NCBI GenBank assembly: GCA_005888315.1 | Contig: VAWH01000072.1 | Coordinates: forward strand, 1 to 64,000 | Source of the DNA: Actinomycetota bacterium | Lineage (GTDB): Bacteria; Actinomycetota; Thermoleophilia; Gaiellales; Gaiellaceae | Length of the DNA stretch: 64,000 nucleotides | Direction: 5' to 3' | In this document: positions 4,163 through 58,735 of the stretch, piece after piece | How positions within the stretch are numbered: the first letter of the stretch is position 1 | Layout: each line of letters begins with the position of its first letter | The notes under the pieces: generated by a model | What the model was told of the DNA's origin: nothing | What the model saw: the letters and a program-made list of their open reading frames with translations, nothing else | The model's database searches: none | Position numbers and translations under genes: made by a program

Positions 4163-4521
4163 ACCTCTCGCTCGACCACGTCCAGGTCGTCGTCCCCTCC
4201 GGCGGTGTCGAGGAGGCCGTGCGCTTCTATGCCGAAGTCGTAGGGCTCGAGCGGATCGAGCGGCCGGAAAGCATGGGCGGGGTCGGGGTCTGGTTCCGCG
4301 CCGGCTCGCAGGAGCTCCATGTCTCCGAGTACGAGCAGTTCGTGCCAGCCGCGAAGGCGCACCCGGCGTTCGAGCTCGGTGCCGCAGAGCTCGACGCACT
4401 CGCGCGGCGGCTCGGGGCCGCGGGCGCCGAGGTTCGCTGGGACGAGCGCCTACCCGGTGCCCGGCGGTTCTACTCGTTCGACCCGGCCGGCAATCGCCTC
4501 GAGTTTCTCTCCCGGCAGTAG
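4159..4521 (+). CDS. VOC/glyoxalase-family protein, probable CTG start, 120 aa
   Basis: A single vicinal-oxygen-chelate domain begins LDHVQVVVPSGGVEEAVRFY and ends FDPAGNRLEFLSRQ, the usual beta-alpha-beta-beta-beta layout with metal-type residues His and Glu near the ends. Reaction unknown. No ATG, GTG or TTG precedes the essential first strand; the first GTG (4219) would delete it. The only plausible codon is CTG at 4159, whose last two bases share the hppD stop in a CTGA overlap, so translation is probably coupled to hppD. It may act on a ring-cleavage or side-chain product of the same pathway, but this is a guess. Confidence 0.7.
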   Translation: MNLSLDHVQVVVPSGGVEEAVRFYAEVVGLERIERPESMGGVGVWFRAGSQELHVSEYEQFVPAAKAHPAFELGAAELDALARRLGAAGAEVRWDERLPGARRFYSFDPAGNRLEFLSRQ

Positions 4522-4530
4522 GTTGGGCGC
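4519..4530 (+). promoter_or_regulatory. -10 box for leaderless DUF2071 mRNA
   Basis: TAGGTT (4519-4524) is exactly 6 nt before the GTG at 4531; its TAG is also the stop of the VOC gene. Confidence 0.5.
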
Positions 4531-5298
4531 GTGAACGGGTTGCTCGATCTGTTCTCGGCGCCCGCCCGACAGGCGGCGGTCGAAAGCGAGACGGCCCACC
4601 GCCCCTGGCCGCCGTCCGAAGAGCCGTGGGCAATGGCGCAGACCTGGGACGACCTGCTGTTCGCGCACTACCGGGTCGCGGCCGAGGAACTGGCTCGGCT
4701 CGTACCGCAGGGGCTCGAGATCGAGCAGTACGACGGCAGCGCGTGGCTCGGGGTGACGCCGTTCGTGATCACGGGCTTCCGCCTGCGCGGGACGCTGCCG
4801 CTGCCTCGCCTGTCGACCTTTCCCGAGCTCAACGTCCGCACCTACGTCTCCGTCGACGACAAGCCCGGGATCTGGTTCTTCAGCCTCGATACCTCGAGCT
4901 TGCTCGCGGTCGAGGGCGCCCGACGCGTTTACAAGCTGCCGTACTTCCAGGCTCGGCTGTCGATCGAGCGGCGCGCGGGCCGGGTCGTTTGCGCCTGCGA
5001 GCGGAACGACAACTCCGAGCGCCGGTTCGAGGGCCGGTACCAAGCGGCGGGCGAGGTCTTCAACCCAGAGCCCGACTCGCTGGAATGGTTTCTCACCGAG
5101 CGCTACTGTCTGTACGCGATCGACCAGGGACGGCTGCACCGGGCCGAGATCCAGCACCCGCCGTGGCCGCTCCAGTCGGCAGAGGCGCGCCTGGAGACGA
5201 ACACGATGCCGCCTCCGGGGATCGAGCTTGGCGGGCCGCCGCTCTGCCACTTCTCGCGGCGCCAGGACGTCCTGATCTGGCCGCTCCGCCCGGTGTAA
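4531..5298 (+). CDS. YqjF/DUF2071-family protein, 255 aa
   Basis: The protein matches the DUF2071 (YqjF) family, which has an acetoacetate-decarboxylase-like fold. Recognisable parts are the N-terminal WDDLLFAHYRVAAEELARLV, the strand GSAWLGVTPFVITGFRLRG, ELNVRTYVSVDDKPGIWFFS in the middle, and the C-terminal SAEARLETNTMPPP. It has no signal peptide or membrane segment. The molecular function of the family is not established. The GTG start fits both the family N-terminus and the upstream -10 box. It follows the hppD-VOC pair by 9 bp but probably also has its own promoter. Confidence 0.85.
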   Translation: MNGLLDLFSAPARQAAVESETAHRPWPPSEEPWAMAQTWDDLLFAHYRVAAEELARLVPQGLEIEQYDGSAWLGVTPFVITGFRLRGTLPLPRLSTFPELNVRTYVSVDDKPGIWFFSLDTSSLLAVEGARRVYKLPYFQARLSIERRAGRVVCACERNDNSERRFEGRYQAAGEVFNPEPDSLEWFLTERYCLYAIDQGRLHRAEIQHPPWPLQSAEARLETNTMPPPGIELGGPPLCHFSRRQDVLIWPLRPV

Positions 5299-5334
5299 GA
5301 CACCGGCCGGCTCGTCTTTCGTGATGCTTCACGT

Positions 5335-6678
5335 GTGAGTCCGCAGCGCCGCACCGCGCTCGTCTCCGTGCTTGCAGCCTGCGCGCTGATCGCGCTCAAG
5401 GTCGCCGCGGGCATCCCTTCGCACAGCCTCGGTCTACTCTCGGAGGCGGCGCACTCCGGCATCGACCTCGTCGCGGCGCTCCTCACGTTCTTCGCGGTCG
5501 GCGTCGCGGGGCGGCCCGCCGATCCCAGCCACGCCTATGGTCACGGGAAGGCGGAGCATCTGGCGGCGCTGGCCGAGGCCGCGATCCTTGTCGTCGCCGC
5601 CGTCTTCATCAGCTGGCGGGCCGTTTCGCACCTGACCGGGCTGTCGCCGACTTCGGTGCACGCGGAGTGGTATGCGCTGCTTGCTCTCGCGGTCGTGATC
5701 AGCGTCGACTTCAGCCGGATGCTGGTGTCGCTGCGCGTCGGCCGGCGCTATGGCTCGGCCGCGCTGCAGGCAAACGCTGTTCACTTCGCAAGCGACCTCG
5801 CCGGTTCGGTTGCGGTGCTCGGCGGGCTGCTCGGCGTTCGCGCCGGGTGGAAGGAAGCCGACTCCGCCGCCGCGCTCTTTGTCGCCGTGCTCGTGCTCGC
5901 CGCGGCTGCGCGGCTGATGCGCCGAAACGTCGACGTGCTGATGGACCGGGTTCCGTCCGAGGCGCACGCGATCGCCTCACGGGCGATCGGCGCGCTCGAG
6001 CCCCCGGTGCAGCTTCGCCGCCTGCGGATGCGCCAAGCCGGCGGCAGGCAGTTCGCGGACGTCGTCATCGGCGTCCCGCCCGGCGCCGCGGTCGGCCAGG
6101 GCCACGCGGCCGCGGATGCGGTCGAGGCGGCGGTGCACGACGCGCTGCCCGAGAGCGACGTGGTCGTCCACGTCGAGCCCCAGGAAGACGAGACGGCCCT
6201 ACGCGAGCGCACGCTTGCCGCGGCGCAGCGCGTGCCGCAGGTGCGGGAGATCCACAATCTCTCGGTGCTCCGAACCGATGCCGGCGCCGAGGTCTCGCTG
6301 CACCTGAAGCTGCCCGCAGACCTCTCGCTCGAGGACGCGCACGCAGTCGCGAGCGAGGTCGAGCAGGCGATCGCCGAATCCGTGCCGGAGGTCTCGTCCG
6401 TGCAGACGCACCTCGAGCCACTCGCCGAGCCCGCGCGAGGGACGACGGTCGAGCGAGATACCGGCTTCGTCGAGGCGATCGTCCGCGCCGCGACCGGCGC
6501 CGTGCCGCGCGAGCTTCGCTTCCTCGAGACCGACGACGGCCTAGTGGCTTTCGTGACCCTCGGGCTCGATCCGGCGACGACCCTCGCAGATGCCCACCGC
6601 CGCGCCAGCGAGGTCGAGGAGTTGATCCGCCGTGAGCGGCCGGAGATCGCCGAGGTGATCGTGCACACAGAACCGTGA
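5335..6678 (+). CDS. Cation diffusion facilitator (CDF) metal efflux protein with three C-terminal repeats, 447 aa
   Basis: CDF proteins export divalent cations (Zn, Fe, Mn, Co) in exchange for protons. About six TM segments occupy residues 1-205. Both HxxxD metal sites are present: AAHSGID in TM2 and VHFASDLAG in TM5, with the loop motif HAYGHGKAEH. CDF proteins normally have one cytoplasmic ferredoxin-like dimerisation domain; here three related modules follow (about 215-285, 288-362 and 375-447), the last two introduced by SVLRTDAGAEVSLHLKLP and FLETDDGLVAFVTLGLDP. GTG start; a partial -10 match (GATGCT) lies 6 nt upstream. The stop overlaps the next start as GTGA. Confidence 0.9.
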   Translation: MSPQRRTALVSVLAACALIALKVAAGIPSHSLGLLSEAAHSGIDLVAALLTFFAVGVAGRPADPSHAYGHGKAEHLAALAEAAILVVAAVFISWRAVSHLTGLSPTSVHAEWYALLALAVVISVDFSRMLVSLRVGRRYGSAALQANAVHFASDLAGSVAVLGGLLGVRAGWKEADSAAALFVAVLVLAAAARLMRRNVDVLMDRVPSEAHAIASRAIGALEPPVQLRRLRMRQAGGRQFADVVIGVPPGAAVGQGHAAADAVEAAVHDALPESDVVVHVEPQEDETALRERTLAAAQRVPQVREIHNLSVLRTDAGAEVSLHLKLPADLSLEDAHAVASEVEQAIAESVPEVSSVQTHLEPLAEPARGTTVERDTGFVEAIVRAATGAVPRELRFLETDDGLVAFVTLGLDPATTLADAHRRASEVEELIRRERPEIAEVIVHTEP

Positions 6679-48182: not shown

Positions 48183-48188
48183 ATTCTA
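48183..48188 (-). promoter_or_regulatory. -10 box for leaderless marR mRNA
   Basis: On the minus strand TAGAAT ends 6 nt before the ATG at 48176. Confidence 0.6.
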
Positions 48189-53199: not shown

Positions 53200-53658
53200 C
53201 TAGAGCGCCTTCGCAGCCGCCAGTAGCACGTCGAAGTCCGGCACCTCGGCGTCTTCGTAGGCCCAGACGCCGCGCACCGTCGCCGTTCGGTCGACCAGGA
53301 AGGCCGAGCGGTGCGGGACGTCCTTGAAGCCGCGGAACTCAGACGCGATCCCAAATCCCTCGATCGCCTCGGCATTCCAGTCCGAGAGGAGCGGGAAGTT
53401 CAAGTCGAGCGCCTGGATCCAGGCGATGTGCGTCCAGGGCGAGTCGCGCGAGATGCCGAACCTCTGGACGCCGGCTTGGTCGAACTCCGCGCTCCTGTCA
53501 CGCAGGAGCTCCATCTCGTTCGTTCAGGTCGAGGACCAGTCGAAGAGGTAGAAGAGGAACAGGGCGGGGCGCTCGGTGACGAGGTCGCGCAGCGAGATCG
53601 GCTCCTGCGGCGCGAGCCAGACGGTTGCGTCGGGGATCTGGTCGCCGCGAGCGCGCAT
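53200..53658 (-). CDS. Selenocysteine peroxiredoxin with in-frame UGA (TxxU), 152 aa
   Basis: From ATG 53658 one frame runs to TAG at 53200 with a single in-frame TGA (53526-53524, codon 45). The peptide starts MRARGDQIPDATVWLAPQEP; around the UGA it reads LFYLFDWSSTUTNEMELLRD, then FGISRDSPWTHIAWIQALDL and VPHRSAFLVDRTATVRGVWA. This is the AhpE/Prx fold, and the UGA replaces the peroxidatic Cys of the TxxC motif; the conserved Arg is in VPHRSAF. The length is exactly that of AhpE-type enzymes. A SECIS-like hairpin follows the UGA (53509-53491). Conventional calling reports only the C-terminal 104 aa. The enzyme should reduce peroxides with a selenolate. Confidence 0.9.
53491..53509 (-). promoter_or_regulatory. 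Bacterial SECIS-like stem-loop, peroxiredoxin gene
   Basis: On the minus strand GCTCCTG (53509-53503) and CAGGAGC (53497-53491) form a perfect 7-bp stem with loop CGTGA; G is the second loop base. The loop begins 22 nt after the UGA. Confidence 0.8.
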
Positions 53659-53715: not shown

Positions 53716-54690
53716 TCAGGGAGTGATCAGCGCGACGTCACGGGTCGCGGGGGCAAGGCGGGTCGAGCTTCGGCGGTTGCCCGCGAACTCGGTGACGATT
53801 CCCTGGGAGAGCGAGGCGGTGGCGACAAGGCCACGCTCGATCGAAAGATTGAACGAGCCGGTCGGTGTTTGGATCGTCCTGACGAGCCGCCGCGTGCGCC
53901 AGTCGAAGACCCGCAGGCGGCCCGAGTTTCCGCTCGAGACGTAGGCGTAGCGCCCGAACGCCGGCAGTCCGTCGGCATCGTCGAAGCGGACGTGCCCGGG
54001 GGCGCGGCCGCAGTAGAGGGTTGCCACCGGGCGCTTGGTGCGTGCGTCGAACACGCGCACGAAGGGCCGGTCGTCGTAGGTGACCCAGACGTAGCGCCCG
54101 TCGGGGGTGAACGCCAGATCGTGTGCAAGGCCCTTCGGGTCGACGTGCCCGATGACGCGCGGCCTCGCGATGCGGCCCGTTGCGCGACTCGTGTCCAGAA
54201 CTGTGATCGAGGTTGCGCGCTCGCCGAGCGCGACCCAGAGCCGTCGCTCGTCGGGAGCAAACGCCATGTGGTGCGCGCCACGGCCGACAAAGACTTTGCG
54301 GATGACCCGCCCGAGGATGACGGCGAGCTGGCCCCGCGCGTCGTCCGTCACGTAGAGGTAGTCGCCGTCCGGTGCAAAGGCGGCGATGTGCGGCGAGCCA
54401 AAACCTCTGATTACCTTCTTGATGCGCAGAGTCCTCGGGTCGACGAGCGTGACCGCGCCGGCCCGCGTGCTGACAACGGCGGCCGCGCCGGCGTACGCCT
54501 CGACGTTCTGCGGATCGGCCGGAACTCGGAGGCGCTTCACGACCCGGCCCGACGGCAGCGAGGCGACCACGAGCTGGTTCAGGGTCTCGGCCGTGACGAG
54601 CGCGTAGGTCGGGCGCCCGCCTCCCCCGCGGGCCTGCGAGGCGGGTGTGAGGACCGCGCCGATCAGGACGGCGAGCACGGCGAGCTTCAT
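53716..54690 (-). CDS. Secreted YVTN-type beta-propeller protein, 324 aa
   Basis: A signal peptide (MKLAVLAVLIGAVLTPASQA) is followed by seven-bladed-propeller repeats: FGSPHIAAFAPDGDYLYVTD, GRGAHHMAFAPDERRLWVAL, AHDLAFTPDGRYVWVTYDD and FGRYAYVSSGNSGRLRVFDW, the YVTN pattern of bacterial surface or periplasmic propellers. No enzymatic residues are evident. The start at 54690 is set by the signal peptide. It is divergent from the GAF-like gene. Confidence 0.75.
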   Translation of the reverse strand: MKLAVLAVLIGAVLTPASQARGGGGRPTYALVTAETLNQLVVASLPSGRVVKRLRVPADPQNVEAYAGAAAVVSTRAGAVTLVDPRTLRIKKVIRGFGSPHIAAFAPDGDYLYVTDDARGQLAVILGRVIRKVFVGRGAHHMAFAPDERRLWVALGERATSITVLDTSRATGRIARPRVIGHVDPKGLAHDLAFTPDGRYVWVTYDDRPFVRVFDARTKRPVATLYCGRAPGHVRFDDADGLPAFGRYAYVSSGNSGRLRVFDWRTRRLVRTIQTPTGSFNLSIERGLVATASLSQGIVTEFAGNRRSSTRLAPATRDVALITP

Positions 54691-54745
54691 GCAATTCGTA
54701 CGACCGAGCGCCCGGCCGCCGTCCCCGCGCGGAATAATCAAGGCG

Positions 54746-55237
54746 ATGGAGGAAGGGCAGGAACGAGCCGTTGCCACGCTGAGCGCCGAGACCTCGCTGC
54801 CGGGCTTGCTCCACGCCGCGACGCGGGAATTCCTCGAGATCGTCGATGGCGATGCCTCCGCGATCTCGCGGGTTGTCGGTGACGTCTTGATCCAGGTCGC
54901 CGAACGCGCCCGCGACGATCGCACCCTCGTTCTGGGCCACGGCTATCTGATCTCCGATTTCCCGCTGACCGAGGCGGCCTTGCGCCACGACGAACCGCAC
55001 TGCGTCTCGCTGCTCGATCCCGATCCCGATCCGCGGGAGGCGTCGCTGCTCCGCGAGCTGAAGCTCGATTCGCTGCTGATGCTGCCGCTGATGGGGCCGG
55101 CGGGCGGCTGGGGCCTCGCCGAGATCTATGTCAACGGGCGGAGCTTCGATGGGGACGACGTCGCCCGGGCGCGCCCACTCGCGGCGGCTTTCGGCGAACG
55201 GCTCGCTGCCCTACCCTCGCCGGCGTCCGGCCGCTAG
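54746..55237 (+). CDS. GAF-like domain protein, 163 aa
   Basis: The sequence looks like one GAF domain: N-terminal helix LPGLLHAATREFLEIVDGDA, VLVLGHGYLISDFPLTE-like strand region, LDSLLMLPLMGPAGGWGLAE and the final helix VARARPLAAAFGERLAAL. GAF domains bind small ligands and usually regulate partners; here it stands alone without an output domain. ATG at 54746; its 3' end overlaps the convergent zinc-ribbon gene by 27 bp. Confidence 0.65.
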   Translation: MEEGQERAVATLSAETSLPGLLHAATREFLEIVDGDASAISRVVGDVLIQVAERARDDRTLVLGHGYLISDFPLTEAALRHDEPHCVSLLDPDPDPREASLLRELKLDSLLMLPLMGPAGGWGLAEIYVNGRSFDGDDVARARPLAAAFGERLAALPSPASGR

Positions 55238-58723: not shown

Positions 58724-58735
58724 CCCTCGATTCTA
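58724..58735 (-). promoter_or_regulatory. -10 box for leaderless ileS mRNA
   Basis: TAGAAT on the minus strand (58735-58730) is exactly 6 nt before the ileS ATG. Confidence 0.65.

Follow-up and report, generated by a model that had tools for sequence, protein, structure and literature searches.

Selenocysteine (Sec) at the peroxidatic position of peroxiredoxins (Prx) is already known, TxxU Prx having been reported in PMC1794560, PMC2398784 and PMC13188914, with 253 GOS sequences listed under this name (PMC2398784) and the motif PxxxTxxU called highly conserved in a 2026 review (PMC13188914). The locus described here, located in a window of 64,000 nucleotides (the whole stretch of DNA that was analysed) from an uncultured soil actinobacterium, resembles these proteins (PF00578, TxxU; PrxU of Eubacterium acidaminophilum and the GOS Prx) in that its AhpC/TSA domain has a UGA for the peroxidatic residue, whereas its family departs from the described PxxxTxxU pattern, with 70 of the 72 Sec members carrying leucine at -7 in place of the proline of PxxxT/SxxC(U) (isoleucine and proline occur once each), 64 of 72 carrying serine at -3 (threonine in the other 8) and 54 of the 69 full-length Sec members devoid of cysteine, as is the window protein itself. 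The score against the PrxU model NF040737 is 27.8 bits, far under the cut-off of 270 bits.

The closest sequence match is a PrxQ/BCP protein, Aeropyrum 2cx3 (E 3e-18), and the same group provides the highest TM score among the best fold matches, Sulfolobus SsBcp4 3hjp (TM 0.93, rmsd 1.5); among Cys relatives from other phyla, the nearest are for the most part PrxQ-like with CxxxxC, whereas the resolving cysteine at +5 that is present in most PrxQ members (CxxxxC) is missing in all Sec members. The mycobacterial AhpE (1-Cys, 1xxu; TM 0.89, 29% identity, E 6e-12) shares the single catalytic chalcogen, the lack of a resolving cysteine, a similar length (153 aa) and a similar fold, but the window protein has Sec instead of Cys, lacks the motif proline and comes from a genome in which no mycothiol MshA was found above cut-off, leaving AhpE-style mycothiol recycling unsupported. 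The thiol peroxidase Prx-SUH (NF045827) and the SelL-related family (NF040769) are likewise Prx-fold families linked to selenocysteine; they gave only weak HMM hits among 52 members (best 5.7e-09 and 1.1e-08, respectively), and the Sec motif of Prx-SUH differs, being CxxU (PMC13188914). The window protein does not reach the cut-off of any curated NCBIfam model, and a literature search, which is weak evidence of absence, returned no paper on selenoproteins of Thermoleophilia or Gaiella; Sec-peroxiredoxins as such are known, but the lineage-wide variant in Thermoleophilia/Gaiellales-type bacteria is apparently undescribed.

Reading frame and active site of the window peroxiredoxin

The gene occupies positions 53200–53658 of the minus strand, from an ATG at 53658–53656 to a TAG at 53202–53200, and encodes 152 aa with a UGA at codon 45 (53526–53524) as the sole in-frame stop. 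A sequence-only reading of the window had described such a frame interrupted once, with the coordinates right and the strand left out, and had expected ordinary calling to keep only the C-terminal 104 residues, which is what standard ORF calling returns (53200–53514, minus strand). When the whole genome was searched with the AhpC-TSA Pfam model (PF00578), the locus was recovered above cut-off with '1 TGA' inside, and with U read as C the match scores 85.7 bits against a cut-off of 26 and runs across the UGA (3.1e-24), both flanks having been described as one 152-aa domain.

The local sequence is YLFDWSST-U-TNEMELLRDR, in which the UGA is aligned with the peroxidatic cysteine of solved peroxiredoxins, as had been proposed; the accompanying TxxU motif does not hold, since the protein exhibits SSTU with serine at -3, to which S/TxxU is fitted instead. 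The conserved downstream arginine noticed in the same reading is the catalytic R117 (codon at 53308–53310, minus strand), which is invariant in 52 sequences and aligned with the arginine of 2cx3. An AlphaFold2 model built on the 52-sequence alignment, with C for U, reached a mean pLDDT of 97.7, and its best solved fold matches are all peroxiredoxins, namely the Burkholderia AhpC/TSA-family protein 5enu (TM 0.85), Sulfolobus Bcp4 and Mycobacterium tuberculosis AhpE. Placement in the PrxQ/AhpE group is supported by both the sequence search and these predicted-fold matches; the narrower label of AhpE-like is better widened to this group, as the PrxQ-type structures outrank AhpE by sequence and by fold.

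A cysteine at +5, corresponding to the PrxQ-type resolving residue, was never found among the Sec members, nor was any conserved second redox residue, and with most of the full-length members free of cysteine the protein looks like a '1-Sec' enzyme. The motif proline is mostly retained in Cys relatives outside the clade and also inside it in L150 and L163, the members that keep it being L150, L161 and L163. The leucine at this position in nearly all Sec members and the missing second redox residue would also suit a selenoprotein whose main role is not that of a peroxidase but of a selenol-based reductase or sensor, for example in thiol-disulfide exchange or peroxynitrite reduction; but the Prx active-site Ser/Thr at -3 and Arg117 are retained, the predicted fold is fully that of a peroxiredoxin, and the proline kept in the three members suggests a change within a peroxidase scaffold, and such a role is considered rather unlikely. 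A peroxidase remains the preferred assignment, with the reservation that more confidence attaches to Sec insertion than to the activity, because the motif proline has become leucine, a resolving cysteine is lacking and no reductant is obvious.

The hairpin downstream of the UGA

A putative bSECIS element, GCUCCUG-CGUGA-CAGGAGC, is located at 53491–53509 of the minus strand, with a perfect stem of 7 bp, a loop of 5 nt and G as the second loop base, as the sequence-only reading had stated; the stem starts at the 15th nucleotide after the UGA (a spacer of 14 nt) and the apical loop begins after 21 nt. The bSECIS model allows a loop of 3–9 nt, a stem of 4–16 bp, G in loop position 1–2, a UGA spacing of 16–37 nt and an MFE of -7.5 or lower (PMC13188914), and the window hairpin lies within all of these limits (5 nt, 7 bp, position 2, 21 nt and -12.5 kcal/mol). 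The core hairpin was equalled in stability by 6 of 200 shuffles and the wider fold of the window sequence by 17 of 200, so that the latter is by itself only mildly unusual and the case for a SECIS is carried by comparative evidence. The sequence CTCCTGCGTGACAGGAG occurs once in the genome, and a genome search allowing 2 mismatches found no second copy of the window SECIS.

Among the 71 distinct UGA sequences, all six inner pairs are kept in 66 and the apical loop appears in the minimum-energy fold of 70, the loop being CGUGA in 68 and CGGGA in 3, whereas a null of synonymous codons drawn from family usage (2000 trials) yielded on average 0.12 sequences with such stems out of 71, and at most 2, a null that ignores relatedness. 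The loop was formed in none of the 13 Cys sequences folded (7 of the family and 6 of the outgroup), and the hairpin is missing from each of the seven clade members that encode Cys. The peptide LLRDR is spelled CUC CUG CGU GAC AGG in the UGA genes and mostly CUG CUG CGC GAC CGC in the Cys genes, and the arginine codons of the hairpin are AGG in 47 of 48 and CGU in 45 of 48, as against 4.2% and 3.6%, respectively, of the arginine codons elsewhere in the same genes. Codons +1 to +13 show zero synonymous differences in the two closest genus-level sets, compared with a pS of 0.356 on the upstream side and 0.279 on the downstream side. With so little variation in the stem there are few compensatory changes, and the argument thus consists of synonymous constraint and absence from the Cys branches and not of covariation. 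On these comparisons of sequences, the hairpin is under selection.

Selenocysteine machinery and the distribution of Sec and Cys forms

The genome that contains the window is 94.8% complete and harbors selA (L052:3222-4523), selB (about 4520-6217) and a tRNA-Sec with a UCA anticodon (6228-6320) in one cluster, SelA having been read in this genome from the ORF list beside selB and searched by HMM in the relatives, while selD lies on a different contig (340.9 bits, cut-off 125). A second UGA gene of the same genome is of the FdhA type (formate dehydrogenase alpha-type; L172:1501-2244, equal to C106:28072-28815), with its UGA where such a gene would be expected to have it (QARI-U-HSSTV); a strong hairpin, GGUCCCCA-GUU-UGGGGACC, follows directly. 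The absence of Sec machinery, which the sequence-only reading had named as fatal to its claim, is hence not what the genome exhibits.

The search set comprised 101 whole genomes, namely the own genome and 100 relatives, and the same frame with TGA at the same codon was observed in 48 of them; the codon is TGA throughout the Sec orthologues (48/48), and TGC or TGT stands in its place where the protein has Cys. Scanning about 85,000 species, each represented by one genome, added 24 distinct UGA sequences, for 72 distinct in total. Of the 48 UGA-bearing genomes, 37 yielded at least one of SelA, SelB and tRNA-Sec. The 11 in which none of the three was detected, which count against Sec insertion, are all fragmented MAGs of an estimated 66–91% completeness, most of them incomplete and two at 91%, and for four of these (G003, G005, G024 and G042) the machinery is present in relatives of the same genus. 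The single-contig relative G020 has neither the Prx gene nor Sec machinery. With two exceptions, the clear family members (at least 44% identity) all derive from MAGs assigned to Thermoleophilia, to Gaiellaceae or to unnamed Actinomycetota. The exceptions, L122 with a Burkholderiales title and L130 with an Acidobacteriota title, are nested among the actinobacterial sequences and probably reflect mislabelling or contamination of the bins.

The family forms one group in the tree with support of 100/98, including 76 sequences (69 UGA and 7 Cys), and the whole tree with outgroups requires six changes of the Sec/Cys label, at least five of which are forced by well-supported branches. Cys members are found at four places in the clade, namely in the g32 genus (L036, L037 and L059), in L065, in L078 and in L150/L163. 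The three g32 members also exhibit an extra cysteine at +26 in place of arginine (GISCDSPW as compared with GISRDSPW), possibly a new resolving cysteine accompanying the Cys state.

Decoding of the UGA as another amino acid, such as Trp, Arg or Gly, or its passage by leaky suppression, is highly improbable, since another gene of the window (53716-54924) uses UGA as a normal stop, the substitutes at the UGA site are the Cys codons TGC and TGT and not Trp, and a SECIS hairpin is present together with SelB and tRNA-Sec; genome-wide reassignment of UGA is likewise rejected by the stop of gene 53716-54924. A pseudogene, or a sequencing or assembly error with a 104-aa product or none, would agree with the truncated form that standard ORF calling delivers, but the same UGA recurs in 48 genomes and 72 distinct sequences, purifying selection acts on both sides of it, the internal Met is unconserved and a frozen hairpin would be purposeless, so that this explanation is effectively refuted by the comparative data and retains a negligible probability. 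Sec insertion at codon 45 is, on this comparative basis, very likely, given the shared UGA, the frozen hairpin that is lost in the Cys forms, the Sec machinery and the second UGA gene.

Additional Prx-like genes with UGA were observed among the relatives. In L079 and L080 (relatives G007 and G036) the UGA of a Prx-like gene lies four codons further downstream (FDFTGS-x-EGG-U-Q), with a clear hairpin in L080 (UGUCCCA-GUU-UGGGACA), and the two possibly represent a further Sec Prx-like family. L081 and L082 (relatives G089 and G099, of another family of the same class) are more distant Prx with a peroxidatic UGA, the motif proline kept (YPLDWTPV-U) and an AGGAGG Shine-Dalgarno ahead of the gene. 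L085 and L086 (relatives G047 and G057) contain a Prx-like YRGGW-U-PYC frame with a UxxC motif, and the window-type Prx there has Cys, not UGA.

Translation start, proposed mechanism and significance

The part of the frame that precedes the UGA evolves under protein-level constraint (pooled pN 0.097, pS 0.356), where the sequence-only reading had offered loss of such conservation in orthologues, or a start only after the UGA, as grounds for abandoning it. The Met just downstream of the UGA, with which the truncated ORF begins, is not kept in 34 of the 72 Sec orthologues, which have Leu, Val or Phe there, and a promoter-like box and the start codon are conserved upstream; an internal start past the UGA is accordingly taken as unlikely. 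The TAAGCT that had been noticed 7 nt ahead of the ATG is indeed located there (53671–53666, minus strand), and 58 of 73 orthologues have a TAnnnT whose end lies 5–10 nt ahead of the start codon, the distance being 6 or 7 nt in 54; from base composition, 2% would be expected. As a ribosome-binding site TAAGCT is rejected, having no Shine-Dalgarno complementarity, and Shine-Dalgarno sequences are nearly absent among the 73 orthologues. In high-GC Actinobacteria, leaderless genes are marked by such an arrangement of a TAnnnT -10 box and scant Shine-Dalgarno sequences (PMC3160421), and TAAGCT is accordingly most likely a -10 box, with translation from or near the 5' end. In the same genome, TAnnnT lies 6 nt before the start, with no well-placed Shine-Dalgarno, in the genes for IleRS (window 58730-58735), a MarR-type protein (48183-48188) and selA (L052:3210-3215), whose upstream sequences make them probable leaderless genes too.

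The locus is interpreted, with a probability of roughly 0.88, as a selenoprotein gene whose product is a PrxQ/AhpE-group peroxiredoxin of one domain, with peroxidatic Sec at UGA 45, a '1-Sec' mechanism and a probably leaderless mRNA. The mRNA would start at or near the ATG from the TAAGCT -10 box, and Sec would be inserted at codon 45 by SelB and Sec-tRNASec, directed by the hairpin immediately downstream. Sec45, together with Ser42 at -3 and Arg117, would then attack the hydroperoxide to give a selenenic acid, which, as the protein is without any cysteine, must be reduced externally, presumably by a thiol or a redoxin. SelB-dependent decoding and peroxiredoxin chemistry are the established knowledge behind this mechanism. 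The broader proposal of a Cys-free Prx clade (LxxxSxxU) with Sec as the sole chalcogen redox centre and leaderless mRNA, lineage-wide in soil Actinobacteria and with labile Sec/Cys exchanges and SECIS-less Cys branches, is favoured on balance, at clearly lower confidence.

Very probably, then, the source soil actinobacterium and dozens of its relatives read an internal UGA as Sec at a peroxiredoxin active site. The gene family is likely truncated in the genomes of soil Actinobacteria, because the active site precedes the codon that annotation treats as a stop and only the back two thirds are retained. It would represent a clear-cut instance of Sec serving peroxide defence without the motif proline or any resolving cysteine, and, as Sec and Cys forms coexist in the clade at about 65% identity, pairs of them would directly test what Sec gains for a one-residue peroxidase in rate and in resistance to overoxidation. 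The family would also provide a test case for whether SelB recoding operates when the mRNA is leaderless and its 5' end lies only 44 codons away.
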